Of a DNA stretch of 64,000 nt, positions 4,805-44,616 are shown in pieces. This DNA comes from Fibrobacterota bacterium (GTDB taxonomy: Bacteria > Fibrobacterota > Fibrobacteria > UBA11236). The position numbers were made by a program, and so were the translations under genes. Location: NCBI GenBank assembly GCA_947466585.1, contig CANIEU010000004.1, forward strand, positions 62,001-126,000, written 5' to 3'. Under the pieces are notes generated by a model. The model ran no database searches. It saw nothing but the letters and a program-made list of their open reading frames with translations, and was not told the DNA's origin. Position 1 is the first letter of the stretch. Each line of letters starts with the position of its first letter.

Positions 4805-7800
4805 GTGCCTTTCCAACCCCTCTTCCGGTTCGTTTCGACAGCATCCGCTTCCACGCTGGGTGCCGTACTTTGCCTCATCTTCGGTGCACTCGCACCACAT
4901 CCGGTCTCCGCAGCAGAAACGGTGCTTGAAGACTCGCCCGGCCGGCTTGTTCTCGAAGTCGAGGTCTCGGCCTTTGAGGCAGTGGCAAGCAATGGTGGGG
5001 GTTCCGCCTCCCGGTTGATCGCCCCCGGGTTCATTGGCCCCGTCGAAACCGGCGCGCCCGATCTGCCCTGGATGCGCTTTCAGGTGGCCACCGGCGATCG
5101 CATGCCTACCGTGGTGATCGAACCGCTCGAATGGGTCGATGTCTCTCTCCCGGGCGCTCTGGCGGGTGTTCCCCGCTGGATCACCCCCTCGAATGCCGAG
5201 CCGGCGCACGATGCTCAACTTTTTGCGGCCGCACAGGGGATCAATCCGCAGGTCTCCGAGATTTCCCTGAACCGCGGGCTTCGTTTGCGGGCGATCACGT
5301 TTCCCGTCGCCTCGTATTCCGGGGGAGCCTATGCGAGTTTGATGAAGAAGTTCCGCGTACGGATCGACTTCCCTGGCCCTGGCTCCGCACCCAACTCCGG
5401 CGTGCGGTCTTGGCTCGAATTCGCCGGTGTCAAAAATCCGAACGGCGGGCAATATCTCACCGCCCTTCTCAAAACCAGCGCCTTGGCGCGGCGGGCGGCC
5501 ACGCAGGCCATCACAACATTCGATCCTTCTGCTCCGCGTATCAAGATCACCATCGGCGACCGGGAACTCGATGGCCTCGACGAAGACGGTGTTTACGCAT
5601 TGACCTATTCGCAGGTCGCGTCTCTCGCGGGCACGGGATTGATCGGGACGTCGGTCTCGACCCTCCGCATGTATGCGGGTCCGCAGGATACTGCCACGCG
5701 GCGATTGGACACGCTCTTTGCGCCCACACTACGCGAGATCCCTCTCGAGGTGCGCGATGCCAACGCGAACACGACCTTTGATGCCGGGGATACGATTCTG
5801 TTTTATGCCCATGGCACCAGCATTTGGAAGCCTTACCCCGGCGCCACCGGTGCCGTTCGGTGGGAATTCAAAAACGATCCGTGGTCATTCGAGAATCGCT
5901 ACTACCTGCAGTGGGGTGGCGTTGCGGGTGTGCGCATTCCAACCGCACCTATCGTTGCCACCCCCGACACCGTGTCTAAGTCGCCTTACTACCTGCGGGC
6001 GGAGCGCGATCTGCTGACGGGGAGTTGCGATCTCAGTGGTGCATTCGATGCCGAAACCGGTTTCATCTGGAGTTGGTTCCATCGCTTTTCCTGTACCTAC
6101 GGATCCGTTCCCGGGTTTGGGAATACCACTCCGACCCTAACGCGTTCCCAACTCCGGCGTCCGGCCACCGATTCCTTGGCGGGACGCGCCTCGGATTCCG
6201 TGTTTTTTGGTTTCTTCGCTTATGGCGGACCGCAGGCCAACTCCTATGTGCCTTGGTCGCAAGGCGTCTCCCTTCCGTTTGCCACCCAAAACGTACCCGG
6301 TGCCTGGTATGCCAAAACCACCAACTTTTTCGGAAACGCGACCGATCTCGACAGTGTGAAGTGGGGCGCGAACATCCGGTTCGACGGATATTCCATTCGC
6401 TATGACCGTTCCCTGGCTTGGCTAGAGGGCCGACAGATTTTTCCTGCGGTCAATGGCGCACGGGTTGCCTATCGAGTGACGGGAGCACCGGCAACGATGC
6501 GTGTATTACGGATTGATGAAGGAGTGGGGGCTCGGTGGCTTGCCGTTTCCGCACTGGCTGGTAGTGCGGCTGCCTTCTCGGACAGCATCGGACCGTATGC
6601 CAATGTCCGTTATGTGCTCTTTGCCTCCACGCCACTAAACTTGACCACTTCCGCCTTGGCGCTGGAAGCCGCAACGTCGGCGGATGGTGTCATCACAAAC
6701 CTACGTGACGGCTCTATAGAGGGTGTGCAACAAGATCCCGAGTATCTGATTCTGGCACCTGCCGCCTTGTTGCCAGAGGCGGTGCTACTTCGCAATTATC
6801 GCCAAAGCTCCGCGCGATTGAATCCGATGGTGACGGCCGTGGTACGCATCGAAGATGTCTACCGCGATTGGTCGGGTGGACGTCTTTCTCCGGTGGCCAT
6901 CCGGAATCTGATCCGCTGGGCGGCGAAACGGTGGGGGGCGGGAGATGCTCCTGGCCGACTCAAATACGTGGTGTTCTTCGGAGACGGCAATTACGACTAC
7001 CGCAACATTCTGAATGGAACCACCGCCGCGGCCTCGCCCAACCACATTCCGCCCTTTAACTGGTTGGGTGCGGAATCCGATGCGAACCCGATGAGCACGG
7101 ATGATTTTTATGGAGTGATTGATTCCGGTGCGAATTGGGATACTTCACCCCCGACCATGGCCATCGGTCGATTGCCGATGCAAACGCGTACACAGGCGGC
7201 TGCCTACCTCGATAAAATCGCCCGTTACGAAAACCCGGTCTATGCGGGAGAGTGGCGCAGTCGTATTCTGCTCACAGCCGACGACCAGTTTCAGCGCGGA
7301 AATGTGGACAATGCCGGCAGTCATACGGAGCAAGCCGAGGACCTTGGAAACAAAATCCTCGGCCAGGATCCGGGCCTTCGCGCCGAGAAGATTTATCTGT
7401 CCGATTACCTCTCGAATGCCGCCGGGTTGAAGCCCGAAGCGACGCAGGATTTGATCAATCAATACAACCGCGGGGTTTTGTTTTCCACCTACTTCGGGCA
7501 CGGTGCTTACAACCAAATGGCTGATGAAGTACTTCTGAAAACCAATGACGGGTTGTCCCGCATCCGGAACCCTGACCGGAGTTTTTTCATGACCTTGTTC
7601 AGCTGCACGGTCGGTCGCTTCGATAAACTTGCCGATGAGGGAATGAGCGAACAATTCTTGAGGCAGAAGGATTATGGGGCCATCGGAACGCTTTCGGCTT
7701 CGCGCGAGTCCTATGCGGATGTGAACGCCTATCTCGGAAACGCCTTTAGCGCAAGGGTTTTTAGCGCCACGTCCGACACCTCCATCGTCACCGTGGGCCG

Positions 7801-8995
7801 TGCCGTGATGCAAGCCAAGAATGCCATCGGTTTTCAAAATCGATATAATAATCAGAAATATGTTTTGCAGGGAGAGCCGGTTCTGGTGCTCAGCCGGCCG
7901 GGAGTAGGACTGCAACTTCAGGCTGCTCCCGACACCTTGCAGGCGCTGGGTTGCGATTCCATCCGGGGCAAGGTGACACGAGGTAGCGGGCGCGGTGCGG
8001 TAAGCGTGCGCATCGTTTCGGGCGATATTCCCAAAACTTATCCGGGTATCACCGGGTCCAGTTCCGTGGCCCAAAAACGTGGCAAAATCCTTTTCGAGCG
8101 TACGGTGCCTTATGTCGATTCCGTATTCGCGCTCCAGTACTTCATTCCGCGCGATGTGCCCTTCGGTGATTCCACCGCAAAAATCCAGGTTTTCGCGTGG
8201 GACTCGACACAGCTTAGAGAGAGCGCAGTGCTGGTATCCAATATCCGGATTTCCGGAACCGCGACATCCTCGTGCATGATCAATGATCAACGCGGACCAC
8301 GCATCGCGGTGTCGGGTTGTAATTCCCGGGAAGCGGGGGAGACCGATTTTCCCGACAAGGTCAAAATCGGTTTGCCGTATTGCTTGCAGATCAGCGTGAG
8401 CGACACTGGTGGCGGCGTATTGGCGGGCGAAGGTCCGGATCAGGGCACTACCGTACAGGTGGTCGGCTCCATTGCGCCCTTCCAACCGCAGGCGGGCGAA
8501 GATGAACTGGCGTATAAAACCTATCAGGTGACGCTTTCCAAACAAGATATCTCCGAGGGAAGCCATCTTCTGAAAATATCCGCGCTCGACGGATTCGGAA
8601 ACCTGAGCCAGCGCGCTATCACATTGCAGGTTTCACAGGATACCATCTTGACCTTCGTACGCGCGTTCAATGTGCCCAACCCTCTCAAGCGCGGCGAGAC
8701 CACCTTCTGGTTCTCCACGACGCTTCCAGACGATGAAGGGGGTGCCTTGCAGGAACCCTTGACAGACCGCCTCCGGTTCGATTTACGGGTCTTCAATCAG
8801 TCCGGTTATCTCGTCCGTGAATTCCGCAATGCCCGCTCCGGAGAGACGCGCTGGGACGGTCGCGATGCGTGGGGGCAGACTCTCGCGAACGGGGTCTACT
8901 TCTACGATGTCACCGTAACCTGGAATGAAGACAAGGGCGGCCCTGTGGGCGGCCGCAGTGTTTCACGCAAGAATACGCTGGTGATTTCACGATAA
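4805..8995 (+). CDS. C25 (gingipain-type) cysteine peptidase, PorU-like T9SS sortase candidate
   Basis: A 1396-residue exported protein that starts with GTG; an in-frame stop lies 12 bases upstream, so no longer start is possible. Residues about 18-37 form a signal peptide ending VSAAE. The central region is a C25 peptidase: His899 in YFGHG and Cys934 in LFSCTVG are 35 residues apart, close to the spacing of the gingipain catalytic pair. The C-terminal 110 residues contain an FlgD-like Ig fold (FNVPNP, GYLVREF, WDGRDAWGQTLANGVYFYDV). Size and layout match PorU, which removes sorting domains from T9SS cargo at the outer membrane. A plain secreted peptidase is the alternative. The last nine bases overlap the convergent ThiO-like gene. 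Confidence 0.85.
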   Translation: MPFQPLFRFVSTASASTLGAVLCLIFGALAPHPVSAAETVLEDSPGRLVLEVEVSAFEAVASNGGGSASRLIAPGFIGPVETGAPDLPWMRFQVATGDRMPTVVIEPLEWVDVSLPGALAGVPRWITPSNAEPAHDAQLFAAAQGINPQVSEISLNRGLRLRAITFPVASYSGGAYASLMKKFRVRIDFPGPGSAPNSGVRSWLEFAGVKNPNGGQYLTALLKTSALARRAATQAITTFDPSAPRIKITIGDRELDGLDEDGVYALTYSQVASLAGTGLIGTSVSTLRMYAGPQDTATRRLDTLFAPTLREIPLEVRDANANTTFDAGDTILFYAHGTSIWKPYPGATGAVRWEFKNDPWSFENRYYLQWGGVAGVRIPTAPIVATPDTVSKSPYYLRAERDLLTGSCDLSGAFDAETGFIWSWFHRFSCTYGSVPGFGNTTPTLTRSQLRRPATDSLAGRASDSVFFGFFAYGGPQANSYVPWSQGVSLPFATQNVPGAWYAKTTNFFGNATDLDSVKWGANIRFDGYSIRYDRSLAWLEGRQIFPAVNGARVAYRVTGAPATMRVLRIDEGVGARWLAVSALAGSAAAFSDSIGPYANVRYVLFASTPLNLTTSALALEAATSADGVITNLRDGSIEGVQQDPEYLILAPAALLPEAVLLRNYRQSSARLNPMVTAVVRIEDVYRDWSGGRLSPVAIRNLIRWAAKRWGAGDAPGRLKYVVFFGDGNYDYRNILNGTTAAASPNHIPPFNWLGAESDANPMSTDDFYGVIDSGANWDTSPPTMAIGRLPMQTRTQAAAYLDKIARYENPVYAGEWRSRILLTADDQFQRGNVDNAGSHTEQAEDLGNKILGQDPGLRAEKIYLSDYLSNAAGLKPEATQDLINQYNRGVLFSTYFGHGAYNQMADEVLLKTNDGLSRIRNPDRSFFMTLFSCTVGRFDKLADEGMSEQFLRQKDYGAIGTLSASRESYADVNAYLGNAFSARVFSATSDTSIVTVGRAVMQAKNAIGFQNRYNNQKYVLQGEPVLVLSRPGVGLQLQAAPDTLQALGCDSIRGKVTRGSGRGAVSVRIVSGDIPKTYPGITGSSSVAQKRGKILFERTVPYVDSVFALQYFIPRDVPFGDSTAKIQVFAWDSTQLRESAVLVSNIRISGTATSSCMINDQRGPRIAVSGCNSREAGETDFPDKVKIGLPYCLQISVSDTGGGVLAGEGPDQGTTVQVVGSIAPFQPQAGEDELAYKTYQVTLSKQDISEGSHLLKISALDGFGNLSQRAITLQVSQDTILTFVRAFNVPNPLKRGETTFWFSTTLPDDEGGALQEPLTDRLRFDLRVFNQSGYLVREFRNARSGETRWDGRDAWGQTLANGVYFYDVTVTWNEDKGGPVGGRSVSRKNTLVISR

Positions 8996-15786: not shown

Positions 15787-17619
15787 ATGAAACGTTCACT
15801 GTCTATATCCACCTTTGCTTTGTCGCTTGTGCTGGGCGTTACGGGAGTGCACGCGCAGTCCTGGACGAACGCTTATACGTCGGCGACTGCCACGGGCACC
15901 TGTACGGGATTGCCCGCGGCGCTCAACACGGGCTTCACCACGACTCCGGTTGTGAGCCAGGCGCTGTTTGCCTCGGTCGCTCCGGTCCGTATTCTGAAGA
16001 TGGCGTTCTGGAAGCAGCCCTCTGCCCAGTACAACGACATCTACATGATTGAAAAAGGCATCTCCAGCGGTACGACCGCCCGTGTCCTGTATTACAACGG
16101 CGCCACCAGCGCTCTCAGCGTGATGGGCACCATCCCGAACGTCAACTTTGGTGGCGGCGGCGTTCAAGAAGACGGTGGAATCGGCATAGCCGTCAATCCG
16201 GTGACTCATGGCACCGACAATTACATCTACATCGACTATTCGGTCGGTAACGCCACCAACGCGGCGTCCTGGACGAACGGTTGGCGCATTTCGCGCTTCA
16301 CGATCGATCCCACAACCAAGGTGATGGATCTCGCCTCGGAAAAGATCCTCCTCACGGTTCCGGCTTGGCACAACGCGCGCTGGCACACCGGTGGCGCCAT
16401 GCAGTTCGACAACTTCGGCAACCTCTACATCGCCACCGGTGATAACGAGGCCCTCGCTACGGGCGCCGGCAACACGGCCGACCTGCGCGGTGCCGTTCTC
16501 CGCATCAAACCAGATACTTCCGCTCGCGGTTATTCGATTCCCGCCGGCAACTTCGGCGACTACTGGGCGCAGAAGTGGCAGGACTCCGGTCTGACTGACC
16601 GTGCCGCGAAGTACCGTGACACCTCCAAGGTCAAGGCCGAGCTCTACGTTAAGGGCAGCCGTAATCCCTACACCATCAGCGTCGACAAGAACCGTCTTGG
16701 CTGGTTGCAGTGGTCGGAATGCGGCCCGGATGCACAGCGCAGCGAAGAGCACAGCTTCACCACCAAGCCGGCGTTCAGCGGCTGGCCTTTCTGGGCCGGC
16801 AATGGCGTGCGTCAGACCGCCAAGGCGGGCAGCTATTCGGAGTCGCCCGACGTGACTGACTGGGCGGCGTTCAACCCGACCACGGTGACGACGCAGATTC
16901 CGTATACTAACTACGTGGGCATCGCGGGTGTTGACACCTTCCCTCCGATGCACGTTCCCTCCTATGTCTACAGCAGCCCGTCTTGCGCGGCCGGCGGTGG
17001 ACCGATCATCCGTTACGATGGTCGCATCAACAACCCGAACAAGATGCCTCCGCACCTTGATTACACTACGATGTTCTCCGACTTCACCGTGACGAGCGCG
17101 ACCTCCATCTGGGCGAAGGCGATCGACACCGCTACAAAGTCCAATAATGCTACGCCCGCTTCGGCGACCTCGGTGTTCACGATGACCAAAACCGGCCGTC
17201 CGAATACGAGCAACCCGGTTGACTTTCAGCAGGGTGCCGATGGTTCGTTGTACATGGTTGACTGGGGCACGGGTTGCTGTAACGTGGACGGCGGTGCCGC
17301 CAACGGCGGTATCGTGCGTATCGCCTACACCGGCACCTGCCAGGATCCGGGTCTCAGCCCGGCCGGCCCGGTTGGGCTTGAATCCCAGATCATTCGCGGC
17401 TCTGTGGAATGGCTCCGTATGGGCGCGAACTCGGTTTTCGTGAATGCCGATGGTCGCCACACGGTCCAGATTCTGGACGTGAGCGGTCGTCTGATTCAGA
17501 CCTTCACCGGCACGGGAACAGCAACCTACAACATGCCGGCACTGGCTAATGGCAAGATCTTCGTGTTGCGCGTCACGACTCCGCTCGGCACTGCCGTGCG
17601 TACGTTCAGCCGCATCTAA
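15787..17619 (+). CDS. Secreted glucose/sorbosone dehydrogenase-like beta propeller with T9SS sorting-like tail
   Basis: A 610-residue exported protein. Residues 1-23 are a clear signal peptide ending GVHAQ. The body resembles the PQQ-dependent glucose/sorbosone dehydrogenase propeller: GGGVQEDGGIGIAVNP, WHTGGAMQFDNFGNLYIATGD, LRGAVLRIKPD and KGSRNPYTISVD. The C-terminal 75 residues (VFVNADGRHTVQILDVSGRLIQTF ending FVLRVTTPLGTAVRTF) look like a type A T9SS sorting domain. It should therefore be exported by Sec, carried through T9SS and cut, perhaps by the C25 protein at 4805. It stands alone with its own terminator. Substrate and cofactor are inferred from the fold only. Confidence 0.8.
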   Translation: MKRSLSISTFALSLVLGVTGVHAQSWTNAYTSATATGTCTGLPAALNTGFTTTPVVSQALFASVAPVRILKMAFWKQPSAQYNDIYMIEKGISSGTTARVLYYNGATSALSVMGTIPNVNFGGGGVQEDGGIGIAVNPVTHGTDNYIYIDYSVGNATNAASWTNGWRISRFTIDPTTKVMDLASEKILLTVPAWHNARWHTGGAMQFDNFGNLYIATGDNEALATGAGNTADLRGAVLRIKPDTSARGYSIPAGNFGDYWAQKWQDSGLTDRAAKYRDTSKVKAELYVKGSRNPYTISVDKNRLGWLQWSECGPDAQRSEEHSFTTKPAFSGWPFWAGNGVRQTAKAGSYSESPDVTDWAAFNPTTVTTQIPYTNYVGIAGVDTFPPMHVPSYVYSSPSCAAGGGPIIRYDGRINNPNKMPPHLDYTTMFSDFTVTSATSIWAKAIDTATKSNNATPASATSVFTMTKTGRPNTSNPVDFQQGADGSLYMVDWGTGCCNVDGGAANGGIVRIAYTGTCQDPGLSPAGPVGLESQIIRGSVEWLRMGANSVFVNADGRHTVQILDVSGRLIQTFTGTGTATYNMPALANGKIFVLRVTTPLGTAVRTFSRI

Positions 17620-17640
17620 CCAGGTCTGATCTTTATCAAA

Positions 17641-17677
17641 AAAGGCCGTCGGGGAAACCCGGCGGCCTTTTGTTTTT
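17641..17677 (+). terminator. Intrinsic terminator of the dehydrogenase gene
   Basis: AAAGGCCG-T-CGGG pairs with CCCG-G-CGGCCTTT around a GAAA tetraloop (17641-17670), followed by a T-rich run. It is 21 bases past the stop codon. Confidence 0.92.
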
Positions 17678-17880
17678 TAGGGGTTTCAGAATGCTAAAAA
17701 GCGGCCGCCGGCTTGCCGGAACCTTGGGTTAGCGTAGAGATCCGAACCGTCCAAAATCCGCACGGAATGCCGACCTTCCCCAATTTTAATCAGGGCCTTT
17801 TTTAGCTTAAATTCGAAAGGGTGACAGGATTTTACAACAAATTCGAGGTATTTAAGCCCTGCCGGAGGTAAACTATATCA

Positions 17881-19779
17881 ATGGATAAAGCTGCTTCGCT
17901 GTACCACACCCATCATCGCTTTCATATTCCGGTCATGGGTACCGGTTTCACCCTTGACACCCCCCTCCGAGTGGCCCAATTTGGCATCAGTTCGGTGATG
18001 TCCTTGGTCGACGATATGTTGATCGAGCGGATCCGCAAGCATTACTGCAAGGTGTACGGGTTGCCCTACGAAGTAATCGTGCAGAGTCATCCGGACGCCC
18101 GGGCGGCACGCATCACCGCCTGGTTGAATCTTGTTCAGGACAAGGTGGATGAACAGGTCGCAGCCATCAAGGCACTGCCGTTTTTACCCGAAGGTGAAGA
18201 GAACAACAAGACCCTTTATTTCTCCTACTTGCCTGATACTTCACCTGTCAAACAGTTGTATCTGCGTTGGCAGGCTGCGGCCACACCGGAGAAACCCGCA
18301 CTCGAAGCGGAACTGAACGACTGCATCGTGGCGGGCATGCTCGATGTGAACATCATGACCAAGCTCGACCGCCTGCCCTACGGCAAGGACGGCCTTCCGC
18401 TTCCCACGGAGTTCAGCGACGCCAAGGCCGCGCTGCGCGGCTTCGCTTTGTCCCGCGCTCGCGGCAACATGGTGTTCAGCGCGGGTATCAACCCAACCCT
18501 GTACGGCAGTCTCGAGCAATTCCCCGACTTCTATCCGACCCAAGGGCCAGACGGCGTCGAGGCTCCCAAGAAGGGCGTGACGCTCAAGGTGACGGACTAC
18601 CGGTCCAGCATGATTCAGGGTCGCTTCCTCGCGAAGAAGGGTATCGAAGTACGCGAGTTCCGCATCGAGTCGGCGCTGAATTGCGGCGGCCATGCCTTCG
18701 CCTCCGACGGATTCCTGATCGGCCCTATCGTGCAGGAGTTCGCCGACAACCGCGAAAAATTCCCTGAGATGTTCGAGCCCCTCATCGAGAACTCCTTCAA
18801 GAAGAAGGGGCTCGAGTATCCCGCAGCGCGCAAGAACCGCCGCATCGATGTGACCGCACAGGGCGGTATCGGTAATCAGGGCGAGATGCGCCGCGTGCTC
18901 GACGGAGCCAACGGAGGCTTCGGCCTCGATGCGACCGGATGGGGAAGCCCCTTTCTGCTCGTGCCCGAGGTGACCTCACTCGATCAGCACACGCGCGACC
19001 AGCTCGCAGCGGCCCGCGAAGAGGATCTTTATCAGAGCGATGCCTCACCGCTTGGCATTTTGTTTAACAACCTGCGTGGGTCCAGCTCCGAAGAGTGGAC
19101 GCACAAGCAGATTGAAACCGGACGCCCCGGATCGGCTTGCCCGAAGGGTTACTTGGTTTCCAACACCGAGTTTACCGAGAAGCCCATTTGCACCGCCTCC
19201 AAGGAATATCAGGCCCTGAAGCTGAAGGCCCTGGGCTATGAAGCGGTGCCGGCTCTCGCGGGCGCGAACCCGGCTCTCAAGTACATCTACGCCAAACAGT
19301 GCATCTGCGATCAGCTCGGCAACGGCGCCTTGATCGAAATGGGGGAGACCGCCGAGCGCGCCCCCGTGTCGGTGTGCCCGGGTCCGAACATCGCCTACTT
19401 CGACCGCATGTACACCATGCGCGAGATGATCGATCACATTTACGGACGCGGCCCTTCGCTGGTTCCCGCCGACCGCCCGCACATGTTCGCCAAGGATTTG
19501 CGCTTGTACGTGGATTACTACGAGCGTCTGGTGACCAAGCACACCTTGGTCGGCGATCCGACCGCGGACTACCTGCGCGAGTTCAAGGAAAACCTGGAAA
19601 CCGGCATGCGCTACTACGCACCGCTGCTTTCGGGAACGCCGTTTCCCGGTGAGAACTTTGCGTCGCTTGCTGCCGAGATCTCGCAGCAGTCCTTGCGACT
19701 CGAGGAGTTGTGGCTCAGCGTGGCTCCTGAAGCCGAGCGTGAGGCTGGTGTGGCCGCGCTGGCGACCTCTGCGCCCTGA
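17881..19779 (+). CDS. Large conserved protein of unknown function with C-terminal cysteine cluster
   Basis: This 632-residue soluble protein has no signal peptide. The N-terminus (RFHIPVMGTGFTLDTPLRVA, then FGISSVMSLVDDMLIE) recalls the start of FMN-binding TIM barrels such as nitronate monooxygenase and glutamate synthase, but the match is only suggestive. Another distinctive block is ALNCGGHAFASDGFLIGP. Five cysteines lie close together at 420, 437, 474, 476 and 499, which could bind an iron-sulfur cluster. GGAGG at 17864-17868 precedes the ATG by 12 bases. I recall similar unnamed proteins in Bacteroidota, but cannot give a function. It is a single-gene unit with its own terminator. Confidence 0.75.
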   Translation: MDKAASLYHTHHRFHIPVMGTGFTLDTPLRVAQFGISSVMSLVDDMLIERIRKHYCKVYGLPYEVIVQSHPDARAARITAWLNLVQDKVDEQVAAIKALPFLPEGEENNKTLYFSYLPDTSPVKQLYLRWQAAATPEKPALEAELNDCIVAGMLDVNIMTKLDRLPYGKDGLPLPTEFSDAKAALRGFALSRARGNMVFSAGINPTLYGSLEQFPDFYPTQGPDGVEAPKKGVTLKVTDYRSSMIQGRFLAKKGIEVREFRIESALNCGGHAFASDGFLIGPIVQEFADNREKFPEMFEPLIENSFKKKGLEYPAARKNRRIDVTAQGGIGNQGEMRRVLDGANGGFGLDATGWGSPFLLVPEVTSLDQHTRDQLAAAREEDLYQSDASPLGILFNNLRGSSSEEWTHKQIETGRPGSACPKGYLVSNTEFTEKPICTASKEYQALKLKALGYEAVPALAGANPALKYIYAKQCICDQLGNGALIEMGETAERAPVSVCPGPNIAYFDRMYTMREMIDHIYGRGPSLVPADRPHMFAKDLRLYVDYYERLVTKHTLVGDPTADYLREFKENLETGMRYYAPLLSGTPFPGENFASLAAEISQQSLRLEELWLSVAPEAEREAGVAALATSAP

Positions 19780-19813: not shown

Positions 19814-19848
19814 AAGGGGCGGGTGGGATACCCTTCGCCCCTTTTCTT
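19814..19848 (+). terminator. Terminator after the 632-residue unknown gene
   Basis: AAGGGGCG at 19814-19821 pairs with CGCCCCTT at 19836-19843 and is followed by TTCTTT. A GGG/CCC pair inside the loop can extend the fold. It is 34 bases after the stop. Confidence 0.8.
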
Positions 19849-20048: not shown

Positions 20049-20870
20049 CTAGTCTTCGGCTCCGCCCGATTTGTCCTTCGCGCCGGTGTCGGTGTTCACA
20101 TCGAGGTCGAACAAACGCTTGAGCGGAATGATCTTGAGGCCCTTGCGCTGGTCGAGCGCGTCGGAGATTTTGTCTGCCGCAAAACCGATCAGCAGGGGAT
20201 GGTCGGGGTGGTTGGCCACGGCCTTGACGAACTGCGAGGCGCTGTAGCCCGGCATCAGAAAGTTGACCACGTAGGTATCGAAGTCGGCTTCCTGCATGAC
20301 TTCCAGGGCTTCTTCGGGATCGTCGGCTACTTCGACCACGGCGTTGGGCAGGATTTGCTGCACGATGGTCACGGTTTCGGTGCGGCGCTGACCCTCTTCG
20401 TCCACCACCAGAATGAAGCGCTCCGACGTGTCGGTGGGCACGAAGGCGGTCTCGAGCGGTTCGTCTTCGTCTTCGCGCAAAGCCTTGATGAGGTCGCGCT
20501 TTTCTTCTTCGAGCAGATCGTCTTTCTCGTCGATGTCGAGAGCGAGGTCATCGAGCGTGCTGCGCACGGCTTTGGCCTTGGAAGGGGCTTTCGAGGCCGT
20601 CGCAGTGGCGGTCGTGGAGACAGTTACCGCAACGGCGGTCTGGATGATTTCGACTTCGAGATGTTCGGCGGCGGGAATTTTTTTGGCGGTCACGGTATTG
20701 GGTTTCGCGGTTCGGGAATTCGGTTGCGGTTTTTTCGGGGCCGGAGTCTTGGCCTTCACCTTGGCTACGGCAACGACCTTGGCCTTTGCCTTGGCCGGAG
20801 CCTTGGCTTTGGGTTTGGTGGAAGACGCGCTCTTGGCTTTCAGCTTAACAGGTTGTTTTTTCGAGCTCAC
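20049..20870 (-). CDS. Lys/Ala-rich histone-like tail fused to a pseudo-receiver domain
   Basis: This 273-residue protein starts with GTG, preceded by a perfect GGAGG at five bases. Residues 1-100 are almost only Lys, Ala, Pro, Thr and Val (KAKAPAKAKAKVVAVAKVKA), like the disordered tails of histone H1-like bacterial proteins. Residues 105-140 are acidic. Residues 150-255 look like a CheY receiver domain: the acidic pair is D157-E158 and Lys251 fits the conserved lysine, but the phospho-acceptor Asp is replaced by Asn203 in YVVNFLMPG. It may bind DNA through the tail and signal without phosphorylation. Neither role is shown by sequence alone. pepP lies upstream on the same strand. Confidence 0.75.
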   Translation of the reverse strand: MSSKKQPVKLKAKSASSTKPKAKAPAKAKAKVVAVAKVKAKTPAPKKPQPNSRTAKPNTVTAKKIPAAEHLEVEIIQTAVAVTVSTTATATASKAPSKAKAVRSTLDDLALDIDEKDDLLEEEKRDLIKALREDEDEPLETAFVPTDTSERFILVVDEEGQRRTETVTIVQQILPNAVVEVADDPEEALEVMQEADFDTYVVNFLMPGYSASQFVKAVANHPDHPLLIGFAADKISDALDQRKGLKIIPLKRLFDLDVNTDTGAKDKSGGAED

Positions 20871-42773: not shown

Positions 42774-44612
42774 TCAGGGAAGCACGATCAAACTTTTAAC
42801 CCCGGCACCGCTCGTTTTGAAGAAGTAGAACCCGGGGGGCACGGTGCGGTTTTGGGGATCTTTGAGGTTCCAGGACCAAAACGAGTGGGAACTGTCGGCA
42901 GCGATGGTTGCGACGCGACGACCGGATTCGGCCACGATTTTGAGGCTGTCGTTAAGCCCGCCCTTTGGGGCCAGAAATACGAGGGGAGTCTGTGCGCGGG
43001 TTACGGGGTTGCGCACTGCATAAGTTTCTGCAACCCCTTTCGAAAGAGCCACATGGCGGATTTGTGTAAAAGAAGTGTTCGCTGTGGCCAGACTGGTGGC
43101 GGTGCCCGCAGGAGGGTGGGTCAATAAGACCGCGCCTCCGGTTAATAAGGTGGATTGATATCCGCTGAAGCTGCTGTCGATACGCCGGGACCCGGGAATG
43201 CCGATCAAGGTCACCAAGCCCGTATCGGTGACGGGAGGCCGAAGAATGCGGAAAGTCAACGCGGGGAAATCCAACTGCGTGATGCCCGACGCCGGGAGGG
43301 TGTCTAACCGGGGCTTGGGCCACTGCGGCATGTCGGGCGAAAAGGCTAGAGGTGAGTTTGCCGCGGCGGAACTGCCGGATAGTGTCATGGCGGCGGCGTA
43401 GGCCGTGTAAAGGCTGTCCCAACGTGCCTGGGTACCCACGCCGTGAATCAAGGCCGTGGGAAGATCGTTGGTGGTTGCCAAGGCTTCCCAAATGGCGCGA
43501 TCAAAGGCTGCCCCCAAGGCGTGGGTTAAAAAAATGTGGAAGATTGCGTTGCCGTAGTTTTCGACAGTCTGTGCGGTCATTAGCGAAATCTGGTGGCTTT
43601 TCGGAATGTTGAAGCGGAGATACTGGAAGTAGTCGTTCACGGAAGGGGCAAGACGCTCTTCCATGCCGGTCGCGCTCAGTTCGTACCAGGCGTGAATGTT
43701 ATTGAGCGTGGAATCGTAGGCGTATTGCACGGAGTGGTAAAACTCGTGGGAGGCGGTCACTTGTACGCCTTTTTCCCAGTCGGCCGCACTGTAATCGCGG
43801 TACACCACGTTACCCGGCAGAACCGCCCGCACGGGGCTTCCGCTGATCACGTCGGTCAGCGGGTTGTAGGTCACACCGTAGAGGAAGTCGTTTTCGAACA
43901 GGATGCGGCCGCCTTGTCCGGGCGGAAAGGAGAGGCCGTAGTACGGACCGGAAAATCCGCCGGCTATGTTGGCGTCTGCGATATCGACCACATACCTGCC
44001 CTGCGAAGGCCGATCATAAACATCGGAGGTACTGGTGTAGGCCGGCATGCGCATGCCGATAGAGTCGTAATACTGCCAAGCGCGTTCGAAATACTGTGCG
44101 GCCATCATTATGTAAAGCGGTGTTCCCGCCCCGAGCGAGTCGAGCCGGGCATGGAGGGTCGAATCGCGTTTATAAGTCGTGGTTGACGGAATGGTTCCCA
44201 ACAGGGAATCCACCGTGGACTTGAGGACCACATCTCCCGCATTGTCAGAGACGATGCGTGCGCGATGGACCGACGGGGCGAGGGTGTACTGCAGGGCGAA
44301 GTGGGTGGTGAGGTAGGTTCGGCCTGCGAGTTTGTTGGCCGCTACGCTGGCTGAAAAACCGGGTCCGGATGTTGTGCCCCCGCTGCCGAGCGGGGCGTTC
44401 CGGTTCATCAATTGCGTTATCAACAAGGTCGCACAGCCACGCCCAGGAGGTGCCTCAGCCGTCAGGATGCCGGAGGAAGTAAGCGTCTCTGCCGCAGTCG
44501 AGGATGCGGAGCCGAGTATGCACAGGGCGAAACCGGCGAGGGCGGTCCCGATGGAGACCGTGGAGACCTTGGAGATCGGTGGGTGGAAGACCTTTGTGAA
44601 GGGGGAGCGCAT
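42774..44612 (-). CDS. Secreted zinc metalloprotease (MXAN_6640-like) with FlgD-like tail
   Basis: A 612-residue exported protein with an N-terminal hydrophobic signal (TALAGFALCILGSASSTAAE). HEFYH at 289-293 in VTASHEFYHSVQYAYD is the zinc motif, and a third ligand is probably in ELSATGMEERL. This layout matches MXAN_6640-type putative metalloproteases. The last 70 residues (FWSWNLKDPQNRTVPPGFYFFK) form an FlgD-like Ig fold as in T9SS or outer-membrane cargo. The ATG at 44612 is preferred to a TTG one codon earlier. It lies four bases after the response-regulator stop, so it may be under the same promoter. Confidence 0.8.
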   Translation of the reverse strand: MRSPFTKVFHPPISKVSTVSIGTALAGFALCILGSASSTAAETLTSSGILTAEAPPGRGCATLLITQLMNRNAPLGSGGTTSGPGFSASVAANKLAGRTYLTTHFALQYTLAPSVHRARIVSDNAGDVVLKSTVDSLLGTIPSTTTYKRDSTLHARLDSLGAGTPLYIMMAAQYFERAWQYYDSIGMRMPAYTSTSDVYDRPSQGRYVVDIADANIAGGFSGPYYGLSFPPGQGGRILFENDFLYGVTYNPLTDVISGSPVRAVLPGNVVYRDYSAADWEKGVQVTASHEFYHSVQYAYDSTLNNIHAWYELSATGMEERLAPSVNDYFQYLRFNIPKSHQISLMTAQTVENYGNAIFHIFLTHALGAAFDRAIWEALATTNDLPTALIHGVGTQARWDSLYTAYAAAMTLSGSSAAANSPLAFSPDMPQWPKPRLDTLPASGITQLDFPALTFRILRPPVTDTGLVTLIGIPGSRRIDSSFSGYQSTLLTGGAVLLTHPPAGTATSLATANTSFTQIRHVALSKGVAETYAVRNPVTRAQTPLVFLAPKGGLNDSLKIVAESGRRVATIAADSSHSFWSWNLKDPQNRTVPPGFYFFKTSGAGVKSLIVLP

Positions 44613-44616
44613 CAAA

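Follow-up and report, generated by a model that had tools for sequence, protein, structure and literature searches.

The open reading frame at 17881..19779 (+) of the window, which is the whole stretch of 64,000 nucleotides analyzed, encodes a 632-residue protein of a conserved family that has no Pfam or NCBIfam entry. The family, its invariant residues, its predicted fold and its homology to FabX-like proteins were computed; from these we infer FMN, the type of cluster and its ligands, the substrate, the direction of the reaction and the electron acceptor. FabX is described in PMC8626469 as an acyl-ACP dehydrogenase/isomerase with FMN and a [4Fe-4S] cluster. Judged by alignment and predicted fold, the protein very probably binds a flavin and a cluster in the manner of FabX. 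The fuller reading, a FabX-like oxidoreductase with FMN and [4Fe-4S] that seeds unsaturated fatty acids (UFA) at low oxygen without FabA, has about an even chance of being correct.

Gene features and surroundings

The features of the gene are listed below (A2 is the FabX-like Bacteroidales family described further on; the sets of 106 and 69 rows are defined in the next two sections).

17864..17868, + strand: ribosome-binding site GGAGG, 12 bases 5' of the ATG, read directly
17881..19779, + strand: FabX-like flavin/Fe-S family protein, 632 aa, from the ORF and its homologues
18679..18699, + strand: NCGGHAF, residues 267-273, predicted active site with Cys268 and the catalytic-type His271
18859..18885, + strand: QGGIGNQGE, residues 327-335, barrel glycine motif; Q327, G328 and G329 invariant in 69 rows
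18937..18978, + strand: GWGSPFLLVPEVTS, residues 353-366, second conserved barrel motif; G353, F358, L359 and V361 invariant in 69 rows
19033..19455, + strand: cysteine subdomain, residues about 385-525, predicted to bind [4Fe-4S]
19138..19140, + strand: Cys420, predicted cluster ligand, 106/106, aligned to A2 Cys319
19189..19191, + strand: Cys437, predicted cluster ligand, 106/106, aligned to A2 Cys332
19300..19302, + strand: Cys474, predicted cluster ligand, 106/106, aligned to A2 Cys358
19306..19308, + strand: Cys476, predicted cluster ligand, 106/106, aligned to A2 Cys360
19375..19377, + strand: Cys499 (CPGPN), fifth invariant cysteine of the cluster region, 106/106, beyond the A2-aligned range
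19483..19776, + strand: C-terminal helical extension past the FabX-like core, residues 535-632, from DSSP of the model
19821..19840, + strand: weak terminator-like hairpin with T-rich tail, a 7-pair stem followed by CTTTTCTTTG

The frame starts with ATG and has cysteines at positions 56, 148, 268, 420, 437, 474, 476 and 499; the length of 632 residues and the cluster of five (420, 437, 474, 476, 499) are both present as originally described. The gene had been credited with a good ribosome site and its own terminator. The GGAGG is present and acceptable, but its spacing of 12 bases to the ATG is rather long. The terminator is plausible, with its 7-pair hairpin and T-rich tail, but weak, as the four terminator-like sites of the scan compare with 2.9 +/- 1.6 in shuffled sequence. 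No sigma-70-like promoter was found in the scan.

The source genome (2.24 Mb, 28 contigs, 98.4% complete) contains one copy of the family gene. Its neighbors in the window, RF3, a glucose/sorbosone dehydrogenase (GSDH) protein and aminopeptidase P, suggest no pathway. The GSDH-like protein (15787-17616, +), a secreted one, is encoded directly upstream of the family gene, and its gene is followed by a long terminator-like hairpin at 17640-17671. In the protein at 20052-20870 (-), a long N-terminus rich in Ala, Lys and Pro is combined with a response-regulator receiver domain that scores below threshold; three other loci (L002, L003 and L031) have relatives of it near the family gene. Elsewhere in the window, 4805-8992 (+) encodes a Peptidase_C25 protein of 1396 aa in which a CHU_C type IX secretion signal domain is weakly matched; it is read as a sortase or protease of the PorU or gingipain kind. 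A 613-aa secreted-looking protein with no Pfam match is encoded at 42777-44615 (-). By reading, it has an SHEFYH motif and a C-terminal tail resembling a secretion sorting signal, and it is perhaps an unrecognised zinc peptidase.

Family distribution and conserved residues

The protein gave no match at E up to 1 against Pfam, NCBIfam (including the PfaD profile TIGR02814) or PDB sequences. PF03060 and TIGR03151 (nitronate monooxygenase / FabK) matched neither the query nor any of the 19 members of a family alignment, A1, and without a PF03060 match an ordinary PF03060 member was ruled out. Single members of A1 gave scattered weak Pfam and NCBIfam matches, and A1 gave three weak PDB matches (E 0.3-0.64); those in Pfam and the PDB were taken as chance.

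The closest named relative comes from a 'Fibrobacteria bacterium' MAG (80% identity). Among genome contigs, 28 homologous loci were found, from Fibrobacteria, Neomarinimicrobiota, Calditrichota, relatives of Balneola and one Chitinophagaceae MAG. Of 167 Fibrobacterota genomes, 63 have the family, and so do 112 of the 296 genomes from the phylum to which the Aliifodinibius locus L020 belongs (Bacteroidota, broadly defined); a plasmid search gave no match. Literature searches found nothing on the family, but as it lacks a searchable name this says little about whether it has been published.

The first alignment comprised the query and all 28 loci (29 rows). Cysteines 420, 437, 474, 476 and 499 are cysteine in 29/29 rows; position 268 is gapped in one row and cysteine in the remaining 28 (28/28), and positions 56 and 148 are variable. 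Since the six peptide patterns that seeded the search contain no cluster or active-site cysteine, this invariance was not enforced by the selection of the loci, and at 29/29 it argues that the five-cysteine cluster is more than chance. A larger set was drawn from 131 loci, 118 with a family ORF and 13 fetched for other genes, by removing duplicates and any ORF not longer than 450 aa. In the resulting 106 distinct homologues, Cys268, Gly270, His271 and the same five cysteines are each conserved in 106/106. The five cysteines listed in the original prediction are thus correct and conserved in both sets, but the list omitted the invariant Cys268.

Many divergent Fibrobacter members match the family profile only to about position 525. 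In the twelve divergent loci of this genus (L113-L124), insertions as long as 96 residues occur at a few sites, including between cysteines, and many of them are without the C-terminal helical extension; all six cysteines and the GGH are retained.

Predicted structure

An AlphaFold model from 19 sequences had a pLDDT of 86.1. A second model was built from alignment A3, which holds the 69 of the 106 homologues that have mutual identity under 80% and at least 560 aa; its pLDDT was 92.9 and its pTM 0.93. The second model is an FMN-type TIM barrel. In a Foldseek search of the PDB with this model, H. pylori FabX was the best match (E 2.2e-10, TM-score 0.68 by target), followed by PfaD, trans-AT enoyl reductases, FabK and nitronate monooxygenases. 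In VIA-align, five FabX entries stood on top (Z 26.3 to 25.2, rmsd 2.9-3.0), and the best non-FabX entry was FabK (Z 23.9, rmsd 4.9). The alignment to 7e1q (Z 26.3) covers 333 of 366 residues, its last positions being residue 363 of FabX and residue 523 of the model; in it the cysteine subdomain appears to stand where FabX has its C-terminal cluster subdomain. The first model again placed FabX first in VIA-align, while its Foldseek list was led by PfaD.

The N-terminus had been said to recall FMN-binding TIM barrels, and the predicted fold, that of FabX, FabK, PfaD and nitronate monooxygenase, bears this out. Structure prediction thus gave a redox fold. A new flavin and iron-sulfur enzyme had also been proposed. 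The flavin and cluster gain support from the FabX fold and the invariant cysteines, with the cofactors assigned by homology. The novelty is confined to the family, for which Pfam and NCBIfam have no model; as a kind of enzyme it has a precedent in FabX.

Homology to FabX-like proteins of Bacteroidales

The PF03060 search of the 296 Bacteroidota genomes brought up proteins about 419 aa long whose C-terminal part carries six cysteines. Alignment A2 consists of seven of the eight FabX-like proteins read from loci L162-L169, L164 being excluded. Its best match in the PDB was FabX (E 3e-34); two scanned proteins of these loci had no NCBIfam match over cut-off. Several of the loci adjoin phosphoglycerate mutase and glutamate synthase genes, as judged by reading.

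The 106-row family alignment matched A2 in hhalign with a probability of 94.4 and an E-value of 9.4e-8 over 316 columns; A3 matched it with E 1.5e-7. In the controls, the best of 30 column-shuffled versions of A2 gave 0.028 and reversed A2 gave 0.14. Against the family, 15 FabK-like proteins gave E 0.0017, 15 nitronate monooxygenase (NMO) proteins E 0.0019, and 11 ORFs centered on IMPDH-type PF03060 loci, a mixed set with some doubtful frames, E 0.19. As to PF03060 itself, the source genome gave nothing beyond one sub-threshold match, a 547-aa ORF taken as IMP dehydrogenase from match position and length; weak matches in three other genomes (G062, G070, G097) were read as IMP dehydrogenase from their sequences.

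The alignment of the family with A2 pairs His271 with His204, and sets C420, C437, C474 and C476 opposite C319, C332, C358 and C360, one to one. With these four cysteines aligned, homology to FabX-like enzymes appears to extend beyond the barrel into the cluster region. The GGH of NCGGHAF is that of FabX, FabK and NMO and is aligned to the GGH of A2, which is aligned in turn with that of FabX. G328, G329 and I330 are aligned with the GGI of A2, and QGGIGNQGE is probably the FMN phosphate site. Cys268 has no counterpart in A2, where the motif is GPLAGGH. H. pylori FabX did not align to A2 in its C-terminal part, so its C300, C304, C308 and C320 cannot be mapped onto the family. Arg164, the ACP contact of FabX, falls in a three-residue gap beside the conserved Lys252/Lys253, where the alignment is uncertain.

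Fatty acid synthesis genes

FabA over the cut-off was found in 0/167 Fibrobacterota, with weaker FabZ-like matches only. The source genome has FabV and one gene of the PF00487 desaturase family. Its best match to an E. coli-type FabI (28% identity, E 8.6e-11) was read as a FabG-type short-chain dehydrogenase; for comparison, the match in genome G164 is 48% (E 1.9e-74). With FabV present, a role of the family protein as the sole enoyl-ACP reductase of the source genome is ruled out, and with the PF00487 gene it is needless as sole desaturating enzyme as well. A desaturase over the cut-off is absent in 52 of the 63 family-positive Fibrobacterota; these 52 genomes are the cleanest case for a possible FabX-like role. 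Of the Fibrobacteraceae genomes G043-G056 (g5-g7), most have the family and are without a FabV match, FabA over the cut-off or a desaturase match.

These genes bear on the strongest rival explanation, in which the same cofactors would work in the opposite direction, as a ferredoxin-linked enoyl-thioester reductase (FabK/PfaD-like) that receives electrons via the cluster and not from NAD(P)H. PfaD and the trans-AT enoyl reductases are close in fold (4yx6_B, E 3.8e-10), such enzymes dominate the structural match list, and 30 of the 63 family-positive Fibrobacterota have no FabV match over the cut-off. However, FabV is present in the other 33, the source genome included, the profile similarity to FabK is no better than the E 0.0017 given above, TIGR02814/PfaD is unmatched, and the nearest iron-sulfur relative acts as a dehydrogenase (PMC8626469). 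The reductase is considered unlikely.

Genomic neighborhoods and co-occurrence

Neighborhoods were read in 105 loci, many of them short, with Pfam run on one or two representatives per group. RIC is encoded within six genes of the family gene in 17 of the 105 loci. Distances were measured in 15 Balneolota-type loci that had been picked for visible RIC. In 14 of them the RIC gene is immediately upstream of the family gene and in the same orientation, 13 to 304 bases away; the exception is L077, where it has the opposite orientation. Rrf2 regulators are also among the neighbors; L099 has nos genes, nadAB and a copper nitrite reductase-like protein, L105 the cbb3 oxidase CcoNO, and L109 both RIC and Rrf2. 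Several Balneolota loci have, close to the family gene, a 413-aa gene for which the Pfam scan gave no identification. In Calditrichota the next gene encodes an AMP-binding enzyme of the acyl-CoA ligase type, and a related gene lies two genes downstream on the same strand in nine Neomarinimicrobiota loci. An acyl-ACP thioesterase is encoded nearby, on the other strand, in 15 Fibrobacteraceae-type loci. The neighbors in other genomes, suggested earlier as a check, thus include low-oxygen, acyl-ligase and thioesterase genes, but the neighborhoods vary among phyla.

The RIC domain PF04405 occurs in 76/112 family-positive and 42/184 family-negative Bacteroidota (odds ratio 7.1, uncorrected for lineage). 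With the A2-type class set aside, the counts are 76/112 and 42/120 (odds ratio 3.9, likewise uncorrected). This class was defined as the 66 genomes with a best PF03060 E-value between 1e-31 and 1e-21, minus two dropped after inspection of their rows: G312, where the match is a 104-aa frame containing a stop and which is the sole overlap with the family, and G318, a match of typical NMO length. Among the 296 Bacteroidota, 0/64 genomes of the class have the family (uncorrected for lineage), an exclusion that may be a simple consequence of lineage.

The RIC genes, the Rrf2 regulators, the nirK-like and nos genes of L099 and the co-occurrence with PF04405 would also suit an enzyme that acts in denitrification or in the response to nitrogen-oxide stress, that is, a nitronate, nitro-lipid or NO-related oxidoreductase with FMN and Fe-S. 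On the other side, 36/112 family-positive Bacteroidota are without RIC, no such neighbors are seen at Fibrobacteraceae, Calditrichota or Neomarinimicrobiota loci, the NMO profile match is just E 0.0019, and low-oxygen regulation is also compatible with a UFA role. Such an enzyme is judged improbable.

Proposed function

Least probable of all is a role of the cysteines in zinc binding or in structure, with a barrel that is either inactive or a flavoenzyme lacking an iron-sulfur cluster: the AlphaFold model is metal-free, but four cysteines align one to one with FabX-like proteins, the subdomain appears to take the place of the FabX cluster subdomain, and the active-site motif is invariant.

The UFA role is favored because of the relation to FabX, the low-oxygen, acyl-ligase and thioesterase neighbors, and the absence of FabA from the 167 Fibrobacterota; a point against it is the presence of the family in only 63 of them. 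The mutual exclusion with the A2-type class and the parallel with gonococcal NGO1024 described below were also counted in its favor. In the proposed mechanism the TIM barrel (about residues 13-400) would hold FMN beside His271 of NCGGH, and the C-terminal cysteine subdomain (about 385-525) would replace the NAD(P)H-binding part of FabK. One cluster would be bound, most likely via Cys420, Cys437, Cys474 and Cys476. FMN would take electrons from a medium-chain acyl thioester, dehydrogenation being followed by isomerisation from trans-2 to cis-3, and the cluster would hand the electrons to a carrier other than oxygen. The outcome would be the seeding of unsaturated fatty acids in FabA-less bacteria, chiefly at low oxygen.

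A bolder version of the UFA role, possible but doubtful, is that the family represents a second, separately evolved branch of flavin and iron-sulfur enzymes acting on acyl thioesters, with a redox-active Cys268 three residues before the catalytic histidine and a ferredoxin-linked, oxygen-free route to UFA. This branch would be widespread in the Fibrobacterota-Bacteroidota-Neomarinimicrobiota-Calditrichota group and would stand in for FabA as well as for the FabX of H. pylori, which consumes oxygen.

If the UFA role is true, it would explain oxygen-free unsaturated lipids in some FabA-less bacteria, and an unnamed family would become a testable enzyme. A diverged family with a FabX-like predicted cofactor plan is present in over one third of the sampled Bacteroidota and Fibrobacterota.

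Comparison with known enzymes

The closest fold is that of H. pylori FabX (HP0773; PDB 7e1q, 9lt5), which shares with the family an FMN-type barrel with the GGH histidine (His182 in FabX, His271 in 106/106 members of the family) and apparently a multi-cysteine C-terminal subdomain at the same place. Identity across the structural alignment is about 19%. The cysteine spacing differs, being C-x3-C-x3-C-x11-C in FabX (C300, C304, C308, C320) and C-x16-C-x36-C-x-C-x22-C in the family. Unlike FabX, the family has a further invariant active-site cysteine, Cys268, and a fifth cysteine, Cys499; its core is longer (FabX stops at residue 363 where the model stands at 523) and is followed by a helical C-terminal extension of about 100 residues. 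It does not match PF03060, and the position equivalent to Arg164 is gapped. The family is not filed as a FabX orthologue, since the H. pylori cysteine spacing is not found in it and Arg164 lies in a gap. The A2-type Bacteroidales proteins, PF03060-positive and with six C-terminal cysteines, are shorter than the family at about 419 aa.

FabK and nitronate monooxygenase (PF03060) and PfaD (TIGR02814) have the barrel fold in common with the family, but, according to PMC8626469, their characterised members are without its cysteine-cluster subdomain. The same paper places a [4Fe-4S] cluster in FabX only, among the characterised nitronate monooxygenase family as of 2021. The gonococcal FabX homologue NGO1024 (Npd) resembles the family in its low-oxygen context with RIC. 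It is cited as essential for anaerobic UFA synthesis in PMC11300592. According to PMC3032703, it is induced anaerobically in the same stimulon as the RIC protein dnrN and the nitrite reductase aniA, and so keeps the same company as the RIC and nitrite reductase-like neighbors of the family.
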